Source: Akkermansia muciniphila (lineage in GTDB: Bacteria; Verrucomicrobiota; Verrucomicrobiia; Verrucomicrobiales; Akkermansiaceae). From it: a DNA stretch of 49,299 bases. Location of the stretch: positions 1 through 49,299 of the forward strand of contig CAMDAD010000023.1 in the NCBI GenBank assembly GCA_945888515.1, in the 5' to 3' direction. Below the pieces are notes generated by a model. That model did no database searches, had not been told where the DNA came from, and saw only the letters and a list, made by a program, of their open reading frames with translations. Shown here one piece after another: positions 13,136 through 22,824 of this stretch (positions are counted from its first letter, which is position 1; each line of letters opens with the position of its first letter). The translations under genes were made by a program, and so were the position numbers.

Positions 13136-13208
13136 TAGAAAATTTAGGCGACTGCAGAAGAAAAAATTCTTTCACCTTCCTCCTCATCATGCCTATCCTT
13201 TGCCCGTG

Positions 13209-14225
13209 ATGGATCATACCAGTATCACCACCCAACGAGCCAGCACAACGTATATACGTGCCATGTATTCTGCGATGATCCAGGCTCGCATCATGGAGAA
13301 CAAATTATCGAGTCTTTACAAAGCTGGGAAAATTGTGGGTGGCGTCTATCTGGGTAAAGGCCAAGAGGCGGTGAGCGCAGCACTGGGATCGGCGCTGATT
13401 CCGGGCAAGGACATTTTTGCGCCGCTGATTCGCGATCAGGCGGGCCGCAGGGCTTTTGGTGAGCCATTCATCGACTGCGCGCGCGCCTACCTCGGATCCG
13501 CGTTAGGGCCGATGCGTGGTCGCGATGGAAACATCCACCGCGGTCGCCCGCGCGAAGGCATGCTGGCAATGATCAGCCACCTCGGTTCTGCGGTTTCGGT
13601 AGTGGCGGGCTGCTTGTTAGCCAAGCGCTTGCAGGGACAGATGCTGGGAACGGTGGGTGCTACCTGTGTGGGCGATGGTGCGACATCTACCGGCGCATTT
13701 CACGAGGGTCTCAACCTCGCCGCCGTGGAAAAACTGCCGCTGGTCGTGATCGTGGCAAACAATCAATTTGCCTATTCCACACCTACGTCTCGACAATATG
13801 CGTGCGAAGATCTGGTGGACCGCGCGAAGGGCTACGGCGTCAACGGTCACAGTGTCGACGGGACTGATTTTCTCGCTTGTGCCGATGTCATTGGAAATGC
13901 CGTAGCATTGGCCCGTGCAGGCGGTGGTCCGCAACTGGTAGTGGCGCGCTTGCTGCGTTTAAGCGGGCATGGCGAGCATGACGACGGATCCTATGTACCG
14001 GACTCCGTAAAAGCGGGGAGCTTCGGGCGCGATTGCATCGACGTAGCAGAGCAGCAATTGTTAGAACGTAACATCATGAGCCAAGAAGAAATCGCGGAGA
14101 TTCGTGAGACAGCTACCATCGAGGTGCAAGCGGCAGTCGCTCAGGCGCAACAAGAACCCGTACCTGATCCCTATTTGGAGGACTGGCGCGCCTATCATTC
14201 CCCATTTGATCAGTCCCAATCGTAA
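13209..14225 (+). CDS. 2-oxoacid dehydrogenase E1 component, alpha subunit
   Basis: Thiamine-diphosphate-dependent decarboxylase subunit of a pyruvate, branched-chain or acetoin dehydrogenase complex. The TPP motif begins GDGATSTGAFHEGLN and ends 27 residues later in VANNQFAYS. The substrate-side loop HGEHDDGSYVP carries the usual phosphorylation-loop histidine. I chose the ATG at 13209; the frame is open from a TTG at 13200. The length of 338 residues is standard for the two-gene E1. The next gene, E1 beta, starts five bases after its stop, and E2 follows. Substrate is uncertain, as the alpha subunit alone does not separate pyruvate from branched-chain 2-oxoacids. Confidence 0.92.
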   Translation: MDHTSITTQRASTTYIRAMYSAMIQARIMENKLSSLYKAGKIVGGVYLGKGQEAVSAALGSALIPGKDIFAPLIRDQAGRRAFGEPFIDCARAYLGSALGPMRGRDGNIHRGRPREGMLAMISHLGSAVSVVAGCLLAKRLQGQMLGTVGATCVGDGATSTGAFHEGLNLAAVEKLPLVVIVANNQFAYSTPTSRQYACEDLVDRAKGYGVNGHSVDGTDFLACADVIGNAVALARAGGGPQLVVARLLRLSGHGEHDDGSYVPDSVKAGSFGRDCIDVAEQQLLERNIMSQEEIAEIRETATIEVQAAVAQAQQEPVPDPYLEDWRAYHSPFDQSQS

Positions 14226-14230
14226 ACCGC

Positions 14231-15199
14231 ATGAGCGTGACATACATAGATGCCATCCGTGAAGCTCAGGAAACCTTGCTGCGTGAAGATCCGCGCGTGT
14301 TTTTATACGGCCAAGACATCGCGGCATTCGGCGGCGCATTTAAGGCGACAAAAGGACTGGCTGAGATGTTTCCGGATCGCGTGCTGGATGCCCCGATCAG
14401 CGAGGACGCGATGGCTGGTTTGGCGATCGGTGCCGCCTTGCAGGGAATGAGGCCTATCATTGAAATGCAGTTTGCGGATTTTTCTTCGATCGCGTTCAAT
14501 CAGATCGTCAATCACGCGGCAACTCATTTTTACCGCACGGGCATGCCAGTGCCCATCACAGTGCGTTTGCCCTCGGGCGGAACGGCGGGTTCGGGGCCAT
14601 TTCATAGCCAGAGCATGGAGGCGATCTACGCGCATTACCCCGGCGTAGTGGTGGTTACTCCTGCAACCGTGGCAGATGCTTACTCGATGCTCATCGAGTC
14701 GGTGAAACTCGAGGATCCGGTCATTTTTTGTGAGCACAAATTTCTTTATCGCTGGCTGAAAGCGAAGTCGTTTCAAGGCGATGGACTTCCGATTGGAAAA
14801 GCACGCATCACGCGTATGGGCCGTCATGCGACTGTGGTCACCTACAGTGCGATGGTTCACGAAGCGGTGCGTGCGGCGGAGCGTTTGCAAAAAGAGTCCG
14901 GCTGGGAGATCGAGGTAGTTGATCTGCGCAGCGTGAAGCCGCTCGATATCGATACCGTGCTCGCCAGCGTGGCGCGCACCGGGCGTTTGCTGGCACTCGG
15001 CGAGGCGTTTCCTTGGGGTGGGGTGACTGCGGAGGTGGTCTCTCGTGTGGTGGCGGATGGGTTTCATTTGTTAGAAGCGCCACCCATGCGTTTGAATTCG
15101 AGGGATACTCCCGTTCCGTATCATCCGAAGCTATGGGCCGCGCATCGCCCGACCCCTGAATCGATTTGTGATTCCCTGCGTAAACTTTTATCCTATTAA
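14231..15199 (+). CDS. 2-oxoacid dehydrogenase E1 component, beta subunit
   Basis: Transketolase-like partner of the upstream alpha subunit, forming the alpha2beta2 E1 that decarboxylates the 2-oxoacid and reductively acylates the E2 lipoyl group. The 322 residues include the start AIREAQETLLREDPRVFLYG, the TPP-contact segment DAPISEDAMAGLAIGAALQG, the conserved HSQSMEAIYAHYPGVVVV and the C-terminal transketolase domain with EVVDLRSVKPLDIDTV. Gene order alpha-beta-E2 with gaps of 5 and 6 bases implies one transcript. Confidence 0.94.
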   Translation: MSVTYIDAIREAQETLLREDPRVFLYGQDIAAFGGAFKATKGLAEMFPDRVLDAPISEDAMAGLAIGAALQGMRPIIEMQFADFSSIAFNQIVNHAATHFYRTGMPVPITVRLPSGGTAGSGPFHSQSMEAIYAHYPGVVVVTPATVADAYSMLIESVKLEDPVIFCEHKFLYRWLKAKSFQGDGLPIGKARITRMGRHATVVTYSAMVHEAVRAAERLQKESGWEIEVVDLRSVKPLDIDTVLASVARTGRLLALGEAFPWGGVTAEVVSRVVADGFHLLEAPPMRLNSRDTPVPYHPKLWAAHRPTPESICDSLRKLLSY

Positions 15200-15205
15200 C
15201 ACACC

Positions 15206-16450
15206 ATGCCCAGAGTTGCGATAGTCATGCCCCAGTTGGGGGAGTCCATAGCGGAAGCCACGGTAGTGCGCTTGTTGGTTGGCGTCGGCAGTGCCGTGAC
15301 CACCGATCAGGAGGTGATGGAAGTGGAGACGAACAAGGCCACCATGGGCGTGACGGCTTTGTGCTCCGGCGTGGTGGAGGAATTGCGTGTGGAAGAGGGT
15401 GTCAGCTATGCCGTGGGCACGATCCTCGGGATACTCGAGGTAACGGAAGAGGAAGTGACCCGAACAGGAGTGGATACGTTGGAATCGTTAGAAAAAAAAC
15501 GCCAGCAAGGAGGATCCGAGGAGGATCCGGTCAAAGGCGAGCAAAACTTGCATTTCGCCGTCGAGGGAGACGGATACGAGGAATCCGTGCCGCCGGAAAT
15601 TGTTCCTAGCATCCGCGGACTGTCAGTTCCTACAGGAACCATGGGCGCTCATTACATTTCGCCACGGATGCGAGCACGCATGGATGAAATGGGTCTGCGT
15701 GAGGCGGATCTATCGGCCATTGTCGGCAGTGGCGCAGGAGGACGTGTGACGGTGGATGATCTGGAGCGTTTTCTCAATTACATTCAAACTTGGCCCAGTA
15801 GCCAGGCATCGCCCATGCGACTCGCCGTGGCCGACGCCATGCGCCGGAGTTGGACGCGGCCTTTGGCGACGGTGGGGACTTCGCTGGGACTCGACAAGGT
15901 CCTTTCCCATCGCCGTGATCAAACGCAGAAGGCTGGCCCGACTCTCTATTTGTTGCGTGCTTTCGCCCTCGCGCTCAAGGAGCAACCTGAAGTAGCTGGA
16001 TTTTTGATTGGTTCAAAAGTCGTGCATCCACGTTCGTTCGACATTGGTGTGGCGGTTGCTGTGGAGGACGGTGTTCTCGTGCCGGTGATCCGCCGGGTAG
16101 ATCAGAAATCCCTTGTCGATTTGGTGCAGGAATACGATGACCTCGTTGATCGCGCTCGGCGCAGACGATTGACGGAGGCAGATACCAAAGGTGGTATCGC
16201 TACGGTCACCAACTTCGGCACCTTCGGTCTAACGTGGGGAACTCCGATCCCTTTGCCTAACGAAACTCTGATACTCGGTATCGGTGCAGGAGTGAAAAAG
16301 CCCGTCTGGAGCGAGCATCTCAGTGCTTTTGTGCCTGCGACAGAGGCCGATTTGGAAATGACCTTCGATCATCGCGTGGTTGATGGCGGTGGTGCAGGTT
16401 TGCTGTTGCGTCGCATTGTGGGGCTATTGCAGGAACCGCAGGCGCTTTGA
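15206..16450 (+). CDS. Dihydrolipoamide acyltransferase, E2 component of the 2-oxoacid dehydrogenase
   Basis: Core of the complex; transfers the acyl group from lipoyl-lysine to CoA. Domains in order: one lipoyl domain (1-79) with the lipoylated Lys at K44 in ETNKATMG, an acidic linker (about 80-140), a peripheral-subunit-binding domain (HYISPRMRARMDEMGLREAD to VDDLERFL, about 148-190), and the acyltransferase domain ending in FDHRVVDGGGAG, which contains the catalytic His and Asp. At 414 residues it is a compact single-lipoyl E2. The usual E3 (lipoamide dehydrogenase) gene is not next to it and must be encoded elsewhere. Confidence 0.94.
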   Translation: MPRVAIVMPQLGESIAEATVVRLLVGVGSAVTTDQEVMEVETNKATMGVTALCSGVVEELRVEEGVSYAVGTILGILEVTEEEVTRTGVDTLESLEKKRQQGGSEEDPVKGEQNLHFAVEGDGYEESVPPEIVPSIRGLSVPTGTMGAHYISPRMRARMDEMGLREADLSAIVGSGAGGRVTVDDLERFLNYIQTWPSSQASPMRLAVADAMRRSWTRPLATVGTSLGLDKVLSHRRDQTQKAGPTLYLLRAFALALKEQPEVAGFLIGSKVVHPRSFDIGVAVAVEDGVLVPVIRRVDQKSLVDLVQEYDDLVDRARRRRLTEADTKGGIATVTNFGTFGLTWGTPIPLPNETLILGIGAGVKKPVWSEHLSAFVPATEADLEMTFDHRVVDGGGAGLLLRRIVGLLQEPQAL

Positions 16451-16534: not shown

Positions 16535-19387
16535 ATGACGCGTCCGTTTTTACTCTGCTTTCTGCTATCTTTGCCTGCCACAGCGGGGGAAATTCTTTTC
16601 AATCGCGACATTCGTACGATTTTCACGAAGCACTGCACTGCTTGCCATGGTGGTGTCAAGGAAGCGGGAAACATTTCTTTAATTTATCGTGAGCGTGCCC
16701 TGGGCGAGGGGAAGTCGGGAGAAAAGGCCATCGTCCCTGGAAAGCCAGATGAGTCCGAATTGATGCGGCGCATCATGTCGCAAGATCCGGATGAAGTCAT
16801 GCCGAAGCCGAAGCATGGTCCGCCACTGCCGGAAAAAGAAATCGCCACCATTCGCCAGTGGATTCAGGAGGGGGCAGAATGGGAGGAACTTTGGTCGTTC
16901 ATCCCGCCGCGCGAAGAATCGCCGCCTGCCCTAAAACAGAAAGATTGGCCGAGAATGCCGATGGACGCGTGGGTCCTAGCGAAACTGGAAAACCAAGGCC
17001 TGACACCATCGCCGGAAGCTGGCAAGGCCGAGTGGTTGAGGCGGGTCTCTCTGGATCTGATCGGCTTGCCTCCCACGCTGGAAGAGTGGACGGCCTTCCG
17101 CGATGACAACTCTCCGATCGCCCACGAAAAAGTCGTCGATCGCCTGCTCGCATCAGCCCATTTTGGCGAGCGCTGGGCAGTGATGTGGATGGACTTGGCG
17201 CGCTACTCGGACACCATGGGCTTTGAAAAAGATCCCGCGCGCACCGTGTGGCCGTATCGTGATTGGCTCATCCGCGCTTTTGATAGCGACATGCCCTTTG
17301 ACCAGTTCACCATCAAACAGCTGGCGGGTGACCTGATGCCCTCACCAGCGCCGGATGATTTCGTCGCCACGGTTTTTCATCGCAATACCATGAACAATAC
17401 GGAGGGCGGCACCGATGACGAGGAATACCGTATCGCCGCTGTGATGGATCGTACTAATACCACATGGACGACCTGGCAGGCCACCACTTTTTCCTGTGTG
17501 CAATGTCACTCCCATCCCTACGATCCGTATCCGCATGAAGACTACTATCGCTTCATGGCATTTTTTGATAACACCGAGGATGCTGACCTGAATAATGATT
17601 ATCCCAGCACCAAGGTGGCTAACGATCCCACACGACAACTCGATGTGACGCGTTTGGAAAAAGAAATCGATGTCCTGCGCGATCAGATCAATCAGGAGGG
17701 ACTGGCTGTCGCTAAAACCATCACCGACTTTCAAGTGTGGAAAATCACCGCCGCCAAAGCTTCTGCCGCTACGGGAGGCATCGCGCAACAACCCGACGGC
17801 TTATTTCTCTCTTCCGGTACTAATCCCACTAATTCCTCGTATACTCTCACTTTTCCCGCACAGTCATTTGCGGCGATTCGATTGGATATACTGCCCTTGT
17901 CTGATGACCCGAAAACGTGGTCAGGACTCGCGGCAGTGTGCGGTGACTTTCACGCTTGGCTCGTATTAGCCGATGGAACGCGCCAACGTATCAATTTGAA
18001 GGAAGTCATCGCCGATGCCATCGTCGGTCCCTTTGATCCGAACGAGGCAATTCGCGGTGGTGGCCCTGGGTTCGGCGACTATCCGGCGCAGCGCGGACCG
18101 CGCTGGTGCTGGTTCGTGCCAGAGCAACCAGTGCTCGCGCCCGAGGGATCGCAATTGGAAATTTCCCTATACCATGCCATTTCCTGCAACGCGGACAATC
18201 AGCCATCGATCCTGAAACGATTTAGATTGTCGTTCTCCAACAATCCGGCGCTCCAAGCCTTCATCGCATCTCCCGAGCGAGCTCAGCGCTGGGCGCAGCA
18301 CAGTGCACTGAAAGGACAATACAACGCCCTACCTGGTACCATGATTCCGGTGATGAAAGAACGCAGCGCCGCCGGCACGCGCGACACCCGCGTTTACATT
18401 CGCGGCAATCGCTCGACCTGGGATGAGTCGGTGCAGCCTGGCATTCCTGAAATCGTGCGACCACCGAAAAAAGAAGGTCGTCTCTCGCGCATCGACATGG
18501 CGCAATGGTTGATGAGCGAGAGCAACCCGCTGACTGCCCGCGTGCTGGCGAATCGCCTGTGGGCGGAGTTGTTTGGGTTGGGCATCGTCGAGACGCAGGA
18601 AGACTTCGGCACCTCCGGCACACCGCCATCCAACCCACAACTGCTTGATCACCTCGCTGTGCGTTTACAGAAACAGCACAAATGGCAAATCAAGCCTTTC
18701 CTCCGTGAGTTAGTGCTCTCCGCTACCTACCGCCAGCAATCAAAAGCCACGCCGACATTGATCGAAAAAGATCCGCGCAATCAAAACCTCACTCGCGGCC
18801 CGCGGCAGCGCCTTACGGCCGAAATGGTGCGCGATCAGTCACTCTTGATTTCCGGATTGCTATCGCGCAAGCAGTTCGGCCCCCCGGTCTTTCCACCTCA
18901 GCCGGAGGGCATTTGGAAATCGGTATACAGTGGTGCGAAATGGACCACCTCCCAGGGAGAAGATCGCTACCGCCGTGGCGTCTATACCTATAGCAAACGC
19001 ACCAGTGGCTATCCGGCGTTTTTAACGTTTGATGCTCCCAGTCGCGATGTTTGTTCGCCACGTCGTCTCGGCTCTAACACGCCTCTCCAAGCGCTCGTCA
19101 CTCTGAATGATCCCGCCTTTATCGAGATGGCGCAGGCCTTCGCCAAGCGCATGAGTGCCGTAGGTTCTGAGCTGCCCGCGCAGATCATGCAAGGCTACCA
19201 ATGGCTGACCCTGCAGGAAGCACCGACTGCTGTCACTGATGCTTTGTTGCGCCTGCACGCCGATGCCGTAGCTGAATACGCCAAACAACCAGTGGAGATG
19301 AAAAAACTCGGATCGTCTCCCGAAGAGGCTGCGCTCGTGCTGGTGGCCAATACGATGTTCAATCTTGATAGTGCTCTCAATCGATAA
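16535..19387 (+). CDS. PSCyt1-DUF1549-DUF1553 secreted cytochrome-domain protein
   Basis: A 950-residue exported protein of the family very common in Planctomycetes and Verrucomicrobia. A signal peptide (FLLCFLLSLPATAG) leads into a cytochrome-like PSCyt1 domain with the haem site CTACHGG near residue 35. DUF1549 follows (PRMPMDAWVLAKLE, then FGERWAVMWMDLARYSDT), then a long insert, then DUF1553 (LTARVLANRLWAELFGLGIV to SNTPLQALVTLNDP near the C-terminus). A second haem-like motif, CVQCHSHPYDPYP near residue 323, is typical of the family. Biochemical function is unproven; roles in polysaccharide degradation or electron transfer are proposed. It is paired with the DUF1501 gene 20 bases downstream, the standard arrangement. 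Confidence 0.93.
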   Translation: MTRPFLLCFLLSLPATAGEILFNRDIRTIFTKHCTACHGGVKEAGNISLIYRERALGEGKSGEKAIVPGKPDESELMRRIMSQDPDEVMPKPKHGPPLPEKEIATIRQWIQEGAEWEELWSFIPPREESPPALKQKDWPRMPMDAWVLAKLENQGLTPSPEAGKAEWLRRVSLDLIGLPPTLEEWTAFRDDNSPIAHEKVVDRLLASAHFGERWAVMWMDLARYSDTMGFEKDPARTVWPYRDWLIRAFDSDMPFDQFTIKQLAGDLMPSPAPDDFVATVFHRNTMNNTEGGTDDEEYRIAAVMDRTNTTWTTWQATTFSCVQCHSHPYDPYPHEDYYRFMAFFDNTEDADLNNDYPSTKVANDPTRQLDVTRLEKEIDVLRDQINQEGLAVAKTITDFQVWKITAAKASAATGGIAQQPDGLFLSSGTNPTNSSYTLTFPAQSFAAIRLDILPLSDDPKTWSGLAAVCGDFHAWLVLADGTRQRINLKEVIADAIVGPFDPNEAIRGGGPGFGDYPAQRGPRWCWFVPEQPVLAPEGSQLEISLYHAISCNADNQPSILKRFRLSFSNNPALQAFIASPERAQRWAQHSALKGQYNALPGTMIPVMKERSAAGTRDTRVYIRGNRSTWDESVQPGIPEIVRPPKKEGRLSRIDMAQWLMSESNPLTARVLANRLWAELFGLGIVETQEDFGTSGTPPSNPQLLDHLAVRLQKQHKWQIKPFLRELVLSATYRQQSKATPTLIEKDPRNQNLTRGPRQRLTAEMVRDQSLLISGLLSRKQFGPPVFPPQPEGIWKSVYSGAKWTTSQGEDRYRRGVYTYSKRTSGYPAFLTFDAPSRDVCSPRRLGSNTPLQALVTLNDPAFIEMAQAFAKRMSAVGSELPAQIMQGYQWLTLQEAPTAVTDALLRLHADAVAEYAKQPVEMKKLGSSPEEAALVLVANTMFNLDSALNR

Positions 19388-19407
19388 TCTCTTTTCCTCA
19401 TCCTGCT

Positions 19408-20874
19408 ATGTTTCCACATTTACAACTCGAACATCTCACTCGCCGGCATTTCCTCAGCAACTGTTCGATGGGTCTGGGAAGCATGTGGCTCGCATCGCAG
19501 GGGCTGAGCTGGGGGGCTTCCCCTGCCATCAGGAAAGATCCGACACAGCCGCTGCTGCCGGATCTACCTCACTTCGCTCCCAAGGCGAAACGCGTGATCT
19601 ACATGCACATGGCTGGCTCACCCAGCCAGTTGGAATTGTTCGATCACAAGCCAGAATTGCTCAAGCTCGATGGCAAGGAGTGCCCGCAAGAGTTTCTCGC
19701 AGGTAAACAATTTGCATTCATCCAAGGAGTGCCGCGCATGCTCAGTTCGCGCTTTCCGTTTCATCAAGCCGGAGAAAGCGGGCACTGGATCTCGGATCGC
19801 TTGCCGCACCTCGAGTCGGTCATCGATGAGCTGTGCATCGTGAAGTCGATGTATACCGATCAGTTCAACCACGCACCCGCGCAGTTGCTCGTTCACACCG
19901 GATCACCGCAACTTGGTTGGCCCTCGGCGGGGTCGTGGGCCACATATGGCCTCGGCTCGGAAAACCAGAACCTGCCTGGATTCATCGTGATGACGTCGGG
20001 TGGGGTGAATCCCGATGCCGGAAAATCGGTTTGGGGCTCCGGATTTCTGCCGTCTGTCTACCAAGGTGTGCAGTGCCGCTCGCAAGGCGAACCAGTATTG
20101 TTTTTGCAAAATCCCGAGGGCGTCTCGCAGTCGCTAAGGCGTCGCACTCTCGATGCTTTGTCCGATATCAATGCGAAAATCGCTCAGGAAGTCGGCGACC
20201 CAGAAACGGTCACGCGCATCGCACAGTATGAGATGGCCTATCGCATGCAAATTCATGCATCAGATGCTTTTAACATCATGCAGGAACCGGAGTCCGTTCA
20301 TAAAGCCTACAACACGCAGCCGGGCAAGGAGTCGTTTGCTAACAACTGCCTGCTCGCTCGTCGGCTTGCTGAGCGTGGCGTGCGTTACATTCAGCTTTTC
20401 GATTGGGGTTGGGACTCGCACGGCACTGGTCCTCAGACTGACTTGCGACAAGGTTTCGTTGATAAATGCAAGGAGATCGATCAGCCCATCGCAGCTCTGC
20501 TCAAAGATCTGCGCCAGCGAGGATTGCTCGATGAGACGCTGGTGATTTGGTCGGGCGAGTTCGGTCGTACTCCCATGCGTGAGAACCGCGGCGGCGTGGA
20601 AATGAGACATGTTGGTCGCGATCACAATCCCGGTGCCTACACGCTGTGGATGGCAGGCGGCGGCGTGAAAGCCGGGCATGCCCATGGCGAGACGGACCCC
20701 ATTGGCTACGAGGCAATGATTGATAAAGTGTCCGCGCATGACCTTCACGCAACCATGCTGCACTTGCTCGGCTTTGATCATGAAAAGTTCACCTACCCGC
20801 ACCAAGGTGCCATGCATCGGCTGAGTAACATCACCAAAGGCGGCACCAAAGTGGTGAAATCATTGATCTCTTGA
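19408..20874 (+). CDS. DUF1501 protein with Tat-like signal
   Basis: A 488-residue sulfatase-fold protein of the DUF1501 family. The N-terminus LTRRHFLSNCSMGLGSMWLA carries a twin-arginine motif (RR at 12-13), so folded export is likely. Family landmarks include VIYMHMAGSPSQLELFDHKP near 65, FNHAPAQLL, IQLFDWGWDSHG, VIWSGEFGRTPM and GRDHNPGAYTLWMAGGGVK; the Asp/His residues in these resemble the alkaline-phosphatase superfamily metal site. These proteins almost always accompany DUF1549/DUF1553 proteins such as the gene just upstream, and the two probably act together in the periplasm; the reaction is unknown. The ECF sigma factor gene follows after 67 bases. Confidence 0.93.
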   Translation: MFPHLQLEHLTRRHFLSNCSMGLGSMWLASQGLSWGASPAIRKDPTQPLLPDLPHFAPKAKRVIYMHMAGSPSQLELFDHKPELLKLDGKECPQEFLAGKQFAFIQGVPRMLSSRFPFHQAGESGHWISDRLPHLESVIDELCIVKSMYTDQFNHAPAQLLVHTGSPQLGWPSAGSWATYGLGSENQNLPGFIVMTSGGVNPDAGKSVWGSGFLPSVYQGVQCRSQGEPVLFLQNPEGVSQSLRRRTLDALSDINAKIAQEVGDPETVTRIAQYEMAYRMQIHASDAFNIMQEPESVHKAYNTQPGKESFANNCLLARRLAERGVRYIQLFDWGWDSHGTGPQTDLRQGFVDKCKEIDQPIAALLKDLRQRGLLDETLVIWSGEFGRTPMRENRGGVEMRHVGRDHNPGAYTLWMAGGGVKAGHAHGETDPIGYEAMIDKVSAHDLHATMLHLLGFDHEKFTYPHQGAMHRLSNITKGGTKVVKSLIS

Positions 20875-20941: not shown

Positions 20942-21538
20942 ATGTTCAAAGAAAAAACCGACTCAAGCGTTTCATCAGAGACGAACATGACATCCGGTTC
21001 GCCTCCCGACATGGTGCAGACTCAGGAACAATTCATCGAATGGGCGCTCAAAGAGTATGAGCGGCCTTTGATCGGATACGCTCAAGGCTTCGTGCACGAC
21101 TGGGAACGCGCCCGCGATGTGGTGCAGGATACGTTCATCCGTCTTTGTCAACAGGATGTGGCCAAAGTGCGCGACGGCGTCAAAACGTGGCTGTTCACCG
21201 TTTGTCGCAACCGCGCCCTCGATATTCTGCGCAAGGATTCACGTCTGGTGGCAATGGATGAAAAAAAACTCCTAAAAATCCCAGGCAACACAGTCACTAC
21301 CGCCACATTGCTCGAGAAGGAAGAGGTGCACAATCGGCTCGATGCCTACCTGCAACGGCTCACGCCAAATCAGCGTGAGGTGATCGTTTTGAAATTTCAG
21401 CAAGGATTGAGTTACGAGGAAATCAGTCGGGTCACTGGGCTGACTCCGGGCAATGTGGGATTTCTCCTCCATCACGCTCTCAAACGACTCCGCGAATGGA
21501 TCCCGCGCGAATGGGCGAACCAACAAGATGAATCATGA
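20942..21538 (+). CDS. RNA polymerase ECF-type sigma factor
   Basis: A 198-residue sigma-70-family factor. Region 2 spans about 35-100 (ERPLIGYAQGFVHDWERARD, DVVQDTFIRLC, KTWLFTVCRNRALDILRKDS), and region 4 about 130-190 with the helix-turn-helix LSYEEISRVTGLTPGNVGFL. The first 25 residues are polar and variable. It overlaps the next gene by four bases (ATGA), and that gene encodes an anti-sigma-like membrane protein, so this is a sigma/anti-sigma pair. Placement right after the PSCyt/DUF1501 pair suggests, but does not prove, control of that locus. Confidence 0.93.
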   Translation: MFKEKTDSSVSSETNMTSGSPPDMVQTQEQFIEWALKEYERPLIGYAQGFVHDWERARDVVQDTFIRLCQQDVAKVRDGVKTWLFTVCRNRALDILRKDSRLVAMDEKKLLKIPGNTVTTATLLEKEEVHNRLDAYLQRLTPNQREVIVLKFQQGLSYEEISRVTGLTPGNVGFLLHHALKRLREWIPREWANQQDES

Positions 21539-22824
21539 AAATAACAGTCGATAGTCCTGAATTCACCGCATGGCTGCTGGGCGAGCTTCCTCGTGAGCAA
21601 GCAGCGGCTGTGGAGCTTGCGATAGCGGCCGACCCCGCTCTGCAGGTGGCAGCGCGGGAGCAACAACAGTTTTTGCAGCAAATGAGTGGACTACTCGGTG
21701 GCTCGCCGCAAGCGCTCGATGGACGGCAACGCGAAAAAATCCTCAACGCTGCGCGCAGTCGCGATGCGGTGGATCAGGTAGTGGTGCCGATTTCCCGAAG
21801 CACGCGCAGTTGGGCATGGGTTTCTCTCGCCACCGCAGCGCTCGCGGTCATGGGTGTCTGGGTGGGTTGGCAAAATCCGCTCAAGGCCGGGAAGGGGACT
21901 TTGTCATTGCAAGAGGTCACGCGTGAAATCGCACTGCTTCCTGCGGACGCAGCTGGTTTTCCGCAGGAATCCTCTGGCTCGTCCAGTGGCACGACGACTG
22001 CTGTGGGTGGCGGAAACTCGGCCGCGCAGCGTGATGCGTTGTGGAACCGTGAGCCGAATGAATACCTCCGCGTCATGGCGAAGCGCATCGCTGCTGATCC
22101 CTTGCCCACCGCAGCCGAGTTGCCCGTGTTGCGCGACCGCGGTTTTGTGGAGGCCTCGCAGCATCCCGTAGCGCCCCTGCCCCTGCGCATCGGCACTTCC
22201 TCTTGGTCTTGGATCAAACGCAGTGTGCTGGAACAGCAAAAGCTCCCGCATCCCTCGATGGTGCGCGTGGAGGAGGTTATTAATGCCTTTTCGTTGCCCT
22301 CAGGAACGGAAGAAACCGTGGCTGGTTACACCGCGCGTGCTTTGCTGATCGATCCTTCATCTACCTCTAGCACCAAGCGGGTCTTACTGAATTTGTATCA
22401 TGCCGACCAGAGTTCGCAAGCGATCGAGTGGTCCTTCGTCGCTCCGACAGGATCGCGCTACCGTCTCGTGGGATTTGGTGCTGGCAATTCCCAAGCAGCT
22501 ACCGCGGTTTCCCTTCCTCAGGGTGCCAGCGTGCTGGTAATGCTAGAAGTGCAACAGGTAGCGTCCGACGTGACATGGGGTGAAGTGCGCTGGCGCGTCG
22601 CGGGACAGGAGGGCGTCTTGCCGATTCAGTCTGGCGCGGGTGATGATGTGGATGCTTCGTTTTTCTCTCTGCTTGTCGATTATTGTTCCTGGCTGCGTCA
22701 GCCGTCTGAGCCACAGCAAAGTTTGAGAGAAACACTGGATCAGCTCGAAACAAAATCTCTGACTTCGGAGCAAAGGACTGCTGTGAGTCTGATGAAAAAA
22801 TCTTTTTCTCTCGGAAATGAGTGA
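21535..22824 (+). CDS. Anti-sigma-like membrane protein with YfbK-type flanks but no VWA domain
   Basis: A 429-residue protein coupled to the ECF sigma gene. Residues 1-60 resemble the anti-sigma N-terminus of this group (FTAWLLGELPREQAAAVELA, then ADPAL). A transmembrane helix lies at 93-111, then a low-complexity linker (145-165). Residues ~170-255 resemble the N-terminal domain of YfbK-type von Willebrand proteins (SSWSWIKRSVLEQQKLPHPS, then VRVEEVINAFS). Residues ~297-395 resemble the domain that normally follows the VWA (FVAPTGSRYRLVGFG, LPQGASVLVMLEV, DASFFSLLVDYCSWLR). Only about 30 residues join the two, so the ~170-residue VWA with its DxSxS metal site is absent. It probably senses or binds at the envelope and holds the sigma factor; this is inference. 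The domain assignment is from memory of the family pattern. Confidence 0.75.
   Translation: MKITVDSPEFTAWLLGELPREQAAAVELAIAADPALQVAAREQQQFLQQMSGLLGGSPQALDGRQREKILNAARSRDAVDQVVVPISRSTRSWAWVSLATAALAVMGVWVGWQNPLKAGKGTLSLQEVTREIALLPADAAGFPQESSGSSSGTTTAVGGGNSAAQRDALWNREPNEYLRVMAKRIAADPLPTAAELPVLRDRGFVEASQHPVAPLPLRIGTSSWSWIKRSVLEQQKLPHPSMVRVEEVINAFSLPSGTEETVAGYTARALLIDPSSTSSTKRVLLNLYHADQSSQAIEWSFVAPTGSRYRLVGFGAGNSQAATAVSLPQGASVLVMLEVQQVASDVTWGEVRWRVAGQEGVLPIQSGAGDDVDASFFSLLVDYCSWLRQPSEPQQSLRETLDQLETKSLTSEQRTAVSLMKKSFSLGNE

Follow-up and report, generated by a model that had tools for sequence, protein, structure and literature searches.

A predicted YfbK-like anti-sigma protein without a VWA domain, coupled to an ECF sigma factor in Akkermansia muciniphila

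Introduction

Several protein families carry a beta-sandwich domain that is split by an inserted VWA domain, and the available sections of two papers name integrin-like ITIH proteins, Sec23/24, ArnB and predicted YfbK as examples (PMC12852372; PMC7170535). The sandwich of ArnB is described there as split by the VWA and predicted YfbK is counted among the proteins of ArnB architecture (PMC12852372, sections available), and the VWA of ITIH1 is described as inserted in a loop of the hybrid domain (PMC7170535, sections available). YfbK-type proteins, such as E. coli YfbK, consist of an N-flank (PF12450), a VWA with its metal site (MIDAS) and a C-flank (PF12034, YfbK_C). To our knowledge, the role of a host sandwich domain without its VWA is mostly unclear.

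The window analysed here, a stretch of 49,299 nucleotides from Akkermansia muciniphila, encodes a protein that can be compared both with these families and with the familiar pairing of an ECF sigma factor and a membrane anti-sigma protein. Homologues of both YfbK flanks are present in the same order; however, the VWA and its metal site are absent, a predicted anti-sigma domain and a predicted membrane helix precede the flanks, and the gene is coupled to that of an ECF sigma factor, a coupling that also exists among VWA-bearing relatives. Gene order, gene overlap, sigma domains, a helical N-terminal domain and a promoter-like site are shared with ECF sigma/membrane anti-sigma systems, whereas the predicted periplasmic part consists of a YfbK unit that lacks the VWA.

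In the open-licence literature searched, no co-mention of “YfbK” and “anti-sigma” and no description of a VWA-less YfbK-type anti-sigma protein were found, and the available sections of PMC12826043, PMC12204202, PMC7406223 (in which VWA is unmentioned), PMC8103513 and PMC3861447 do not describe such a protein. The YfbK architecture is already known; the sigma-coupled, repeatedly VWA-less form appears to be new. Deletion of the VWA has apparently been repeated by nature, VWA-bearing relatives provide the controls, and both forms are linked to an ECF sigma factor with a promoter-like site of its own, a likely transcriptional read-out, so that the separate roles of the core and the VWA become directly testable.

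The sigma factor and its partner gene

The predicted VWA-less YfbK-like anti-sigma protein is a 429-aa ORF at 21535..22824 on the + strand, assigned from Pfam, a structure model and profile alignment. Its ATG overlaps the stop codon of the sigma gene as ATGA, which confirms the coupling that had been reported in an earlier note on this DNA. The sigma factor (20987..21538, +) matches PF04542 (45.7 bits) and PF08281 (57.3 bits), corresponding to regions 2 and 4, both above the Pfam cut-off; among the nine Pfam families listed at E up to 10 there is none for region 3. Although the longest sigma ORF runs from 20942, it would then contain the promoter-like site CAAAGAA-N14-CGTTTC at 20947..20973 (+), and a start codon follows 13 bases behind this site. 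The true start is therefore probably 20987, giving a protein of 183 aa.

Residues 1-80 of the partner protein (21535..21774, +) form a predicted anti-sigma domain with four predicted helices, matching NCBIfam NF052375 with an E of 2.9e-9 at 37.3 bits, below the curated cut-off of 100. A membrane helix is predicted at residues 94-113 (21814..21873, +), where the model helix has a pLDDT of only 55-72 and the hydropathy maximum of the protein falls, the best 19-residue windows beginning at residues 92-94. The closest named relative, annotated as “Verrucomicrobiae bacterium” (L034), has a protein 81% identical to that of the window. A scan of the genome contigs for relatives found just one.

Retention of the YfbK flanks and absence of the VWA

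The earlier note had proposed that the whole VWA was lost and that both of its flanks were kept, and profile comparisons of the two flanks bear this out. The N-flank is recognized directly in the window protein, with PF12450 at residues 200-254 (22132..22296, +) scoring 27.7 bits, above the cut-off of 25. Pfam finds no VWA family in this protein even at E up to 10. PF12034 gives no Pfam match in the window protein itself and is reached through its relatives. Among 61 VWA-less homologues, PF12450 was found in 59 and PF12034 in 30, and no VWA family was found in any of them at E up to 0.001; six of the 67 VWA-less proteins (L072, L091, L094, L095, L096 and L105) were left out of this alignment, being short or without the anti-sigma domain. 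VWA-less proteins from outside the host family retain the C-flank nearly entire, PF12034 covering 1-184, 3-182, 2-184 and 4-184 of its 184 positions in L131, L137, L138 and L141, and PF12450 running from position 3, 5, 24 and 14, respectively, to its end. These four proteins have no VWA, and when they are aligned with VWA-bearing relatives the pre-VWA strand continues straight into the post-VWA strand. The flanks of L135 and L136 were not found by the flank models built here, and these two were excluded from the counts.

Profile-profile comparison connects the C-flank of the window protein to the region behind the VWA. A 7-row C-flank profile from the window's genus matched the post-VWA region of VWA-bearing proteins with an E of 1.8e-7, and the family-wide C-flank (14 rows) matched VWA-bearing C-flanks with an E of 7e-17, whereas controls with the VWA domain itself as template gave E of 0.27 and 0.12. 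In the whole-protein alignment (hhalign, E 1.1e-81), approximately 190 template residues are missing between residues 291 and 292, which places the excision point, the site of the VWA in relatives, at 22405..22410 (+). Eight of the 22 template rows in this alignment are VWA-less, and the C-flank comparison was for this reason repeated with VWA-bearing rows only. Judged by the profile gap at 291/292 and by a C-flank that matches its counterpart and not the VWA template, nothing stands in for the VWA and the excision is clean. The earlier suggestion that the VWA was replaced by about 30 residues does not hold, as in the alignment the presumed replacement residues are accounted for by the strands that flank the VWA in relatives. 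By the features that define a YfbK-type protein, the window protein has the N-flank and, by profile comparison, the C-flank, and lacks the VWA with its MIDAS.

Two other explanations of the missing domain were considered. A VWA gene split off by a frameshift, which the earlier note had named as an observation that would refute its proposal, was rejected, as the VWA model matched no ORF of at least 70 aa in the window. A new element in place of the VWA was ruled out, as the profile alignment contains flanking strands only.

Predicted structure and structural relatives

The window protein, modelled with a mean pLDDT of 84 and a pTM of 0.70, begins with four helices between residues 8 and 75, a helix at 94-113 and further helices between 125 and 187. 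Strands are predicted at 258-262, 265-272, 280-289, 296-302, 308-311, 332-340, 347-355 and 358-365. Together they form a predicted beta-sandwich of pre-VWA and post-VWA strands (residues 258-365; 22306..22629, +; pLDDT 77-97 per block of ten residues), with the same strand order as in a VWA-bearing model. Predicted C-terminal helices at 371-388, 395-405 and 411-428 (residues 371-428; 22645..22818, +) correspond, by model and profile match, to the end of YfbK_C, the helical bundle.

The VWA-bearing relative used for comparison (L127, mean pLDDT 76.6) was modelled from a 22-row alignment in which 8 rows are VWA-less. Its model has strands at 277-285 and 293-301, then the VWA from approximately 313 to 489, post-VWA strands at 493-504, 511-514, 542-550, 582-591 and 599-607 with a short one at 536-538, and helices at 618-633, 644-654 and 662-677. 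These elements correspond to those of the window protein from residue 265 on, by order and place rather than by superposition, and a six-residue turn (290-295) in the window model takes the position of the VWA.

Most rows listed in the fold search with the L127 model match the VWA alone, and three solved structures align over the whole module: ITIH1 (6fpy, Z 19.1, 325 residues, rmsd 6.1), ArnB (8s05, Z 18.2, 316 residues, rmsd 7.3) and 4fx5 (Z 17.6, 344 residues, rmsd 6.8). Across its three domains the VWA-bearing relative is thus alignable with two representatives of the arrangement known from ArnB, the Sec23-24 core and the ITIH1 heavy chain, in which a VWA splits the beta-sandwich and helices follow, while the predicted sandwich of the window protein is continuous and without a VWA. 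The window model itself gave a general Ig-like match only, to the gamma-adaptin ear (Z 8.8, 104 residues, 9% identity), which may reflect a common arrangement, and a sequence search of solved structures with the window protein gave a best E of 0.47. On the models, the periplasmic part is predicted to be the ArnB/Sec23-24/ITIH1 arrangement minus the VWA, that is, one sandwich followed by a helical bundle. The sandwich and bundle of that blueprint are found in the prediction, and its inserted VWA is not.

Distribution of the VWA-less form

In the host family, 120 of 195 genomes, belonging to 11 of 16 genera, match the window protein at E up to 0.001, many of them partially. Of the ten congeners listed, two (G010 and G023) have no match to the window protein and give weak matches to the alignment. 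Besides the window, loci were collected from 61 of the remaining 119 genomes with a match, and all 62 are VWA-less by the models built here, a result that is partly by construction as the 61 were picked for similarity to the VWA-less protein. A complete sigma gene adjoins upstream and codirectionally at 58 of these loci, leaving four without one, and the 4-base overlap is present at 23 of 62. The contig of L072 ends before the C-flank. At L105 the gene is broken into two ORFs between the anti-sigma domain and the N-flank.

Further sigma-coupled VWA-less versions, a search for which the earlier note had suggested, occur within the host family and in other families as well. Outside the host family they were found at L126, L131, L137, L138, L141, L146-L150 and L176-L178; the order-level proteins L146-L150 have a clear C-flank and an N-flank that is weak or not found. 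At class level, 153 of 384 genomes had a match at E up to 1e-10, and among the matches listed the alignment is contiguous across both flanks in G322, G302, G423, G272, G758 and G735 and partial across the junction in G488 and G556. The survey covers the host family, order and class, all within a single phylum. One locus of this set holds both kinds of protein side by side: a single 928-aa ORF (L126:2669-5452) comprises sigma, anti-sigma domain, membrane helix, both flanks and VWA, and directly downstream (L126:5515-7364) lies a separate sigma gene with a VWA-less partner.

Apparent repeated loss of the VWA

On combined trees the VWA appears to have been lost more than once. A tree of sigma and both flanks (48 rows, 28 of them VWA-less) requires 5 changes, at least 4 of which are forced by well-supported branches; none of 200 bootstrap trees (0%) has a single change, and placing the VWA-less rows in one clade is rejected (AU p 1.05e-5). 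A 47-row tree (24 VWA-less, 22 VWA-bearing and 1 degenerate row), with long branches at L176, L177 and L180, requires 7 changes, 3 of them forced. These combined trees include 18 (48-row) and 11 (47-row) VWA-less rows of the host family, omit L155 and L156, which are divergent, and have weak or missing C-flank columns in part of the family rows. A single loss is rejected by the AU result, although a sigma-only tree of 90 rows, with 6 changes, has just 1 forced by well-supported branches. All trees exclude the partial sigmas (L094, L096 and L158) and proteins lacking a sigma.

The direction of these changes is best read as loss because the VWA-bearing form is found also in relatives with no adjoining sigma gene (L139 and L142, whose loci include upstream DNA) and, according to the available sections of two papers, in E. 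coli and Archaea (PMC12852372; PMC7170535). Where the VWA is retained, DxSGSM and [TS]DG are each kept in 33 of 33 VWA-bearing relatives and the threonine-loop pattern, which is crude, is found in 25 of 33. A possible stage of VWA decay is L180, a 710-aa ORF on the - strand with approximately 190 residues between the flanks, only a weak VWA trace (11.8 bits) and no DxSGSM.

Promoter-like site ahead of the sigma gene

The site ahead of the window's sigma gene is predicted to be a sigma-specific autoregulatory promoter on the basis of dyad statistics, its exact place being set by pattern. The dyad AAGA-N15-CGT occurs ahead of sigma in 42 of 58 family regions, compared with a maximum of 9 for any dyad in 20 shuffles made within 20-base blocks; the upstream regions of relatives are not independent of each other. 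In a wider grouping the dyad is present in 42 of 60 family regions, in 3 of 8 other VWA-less regions and in 14 of 29 regions of the VWA-bearing group, which is labelled by locus and takes in L126 (both kinds) and L135. Order-level VWA-less regions do not have it (0 of 5), and their best sites are variants scoring 6.9-19.9 on a matrix that was scored partly on its own training regions.

Proposed mechanism and alternative explanations

A reading that is judged probable, though well short of certain, is that the pair is an autoregulated ECF sigma factor with a membrane anti-sigma protein, in which the sandwich and helical unit works without metal-dependent adhesion. The N-terminal cytoplasmic domain would hold the sigma factor at the membrane, and the periplasmic part would be a YfbK/ArnB hybrid beta-sandwich with a helical bundle, from which the VWA has been precisely removed and in which a short turn closes the sandwich. 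The input may be contact of a protein or peptide with the sandwich or the helical bundle rather than metal-dependent adhesion, and sigma could be released by a change of shape or by proteolysis. Several observations weigh against this reading: the anti-sigma family match falls short of its cut-off, Pfam does not recognize the C-flank in the window protein, well-supported branches of the sigma-only tree force a single change, four family loci have no complete sigma, and the sandwich is under the weakest constraint of all parts in the comparison with L066. The earlier proposal that the flanks form a unit independent of the metal site is strengthened by the predicted single sandwich with its helices, by purifying selection and by the several losses of the VWA. 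The same proposal cast the unit as perhaps the sensor of the sigma pair; it could instead be an effector, as it outlives the complete sigma in two lineages and no second recurring promoter-type site was found among the inspected matches to a strict pattern in six congeneric genomes.

The chief rival to the sigma/anti-sigma reading is rather unlikely: the unit would be the effector and sigma would set only its dose, so that the loop is closed and chiefly makes the membrane-anchored protein of sandwich and helices itself. A strict pattern search gave 4 matches in the window's genome, the same number as with the reversed pattern, and 6-8 matches against 2-5 reversed in the other five congeneric genomes. 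The sigma's own site is present in all six, and among the 30 of 42 pattern matches inspected in these genomes no second site recurred outside a long ORF: those at L188 and L209 are followed by a common sequence but fall within a longer ORF, and those at L187, L200, L204 and L207, although outside long ORFs, do not recur. Against this, the strict pattern may miss targets and single-genome candidates exist, e.g. the match at L197, which in the window's genome lies 68 bases upstream of an ORF of 477 aa. Two lineages with a missing or reduced sigma speak for this rival. In L091:4507-5661 and L095:4445-5596, where neither sigma nor anti-sigma domain was found, the protein still has its membrane helix, sandwich and C-terminal helices (dN/dS 0.21), the unit beginning a few bases past the stop of the preceding E2-like gene. 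L094:4285-5832 and L096:4294-5847 retain just a remnant of sigma region 2, whose reading frame runs on into the last part of the anti-sigma domain, the membrane helix and the periplasmic unit (dN/dS 0.27, a rough value since dS is near 1). The periplasmic unit is therefore still constrained without a complete sigma, if less tightly than in an intact control pair (dN/dS 0.086). This greater relaxation of the sigma-less copies, together with the complete sigma kept at 58 of the 62 family loci, argues against the effector reading.

Two further explanations concern the missing domain itself. A VWA supplied in trans by a paralogue is improbable; contig C4 of the window's genome does encode a VWA-bearing paralogue, but an ECF-like sigma gene lies just upstream of it, so that this paralogue has its own sigma, and no VWA was found near the pair. 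One locus in the collection, L123, has a separate 338-aa VWA-bearing ORF that adjoins a VWA-less pair and is encoded on the opposite strand. Least credible of all, and very improbable, is that the protein is a decayed, functionless relic of a YfbK-type protein. The degenerate VWA of L180 and the two congeners without a match to the window protein would fit such decay, whereas at least partial matches persist in the 120 family genomes, residues E17, E247, N250 and R310 are invariant across the 61 homologues, the promoter-like site is conserved, and the window protein is under purifying selection in comparison with its closest relative, L066 (dN/dS 0.15 overall, with a minimum of 0.05-0.06 in the linker and N-flank and a maximum of 0.27 in the sandwich).

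A broader proposal, offered tentatively as a possibility, is that the VWA is a removable plug-in and the split sandwich with its helical bundle the working core. The VWA would have been removed repeatedly from sigma-coupled copies in Verrucomicrobiota, and in some lineages a self-regulated sigma loop would have the core itself as its output, the core persisting after sigma is lost.

Gene neighbourhood

Upstream of the pair, the window encodes E1 alpha-like, E1 beta-like and E2 genes of a 2-oxoacid dehydrogenase (13200..16450, +), recognized by Pfam and synteny. Among the 62 family loci, 38 have a codirectional Rex-like gene (PF06971 and PF02629) upstream, and the number rises to 45 when dehydrogenase E1/E2 genes are counted as well. 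None were found at the 33 VWA-bearing loci or at the 14 further VWA-less ones, for which the upstream coverage was often shorter. This association hints at a link to redox or carbon state, no more than that, and it may be mere shared gene order. In the window, no Rex-like gene lies between the E1/E2 genes and sigma; a PSD1/PSCyt and DUF1501 gene pair (16535-20874) sits there, in the place that the Rex-like gene has in many relatives.
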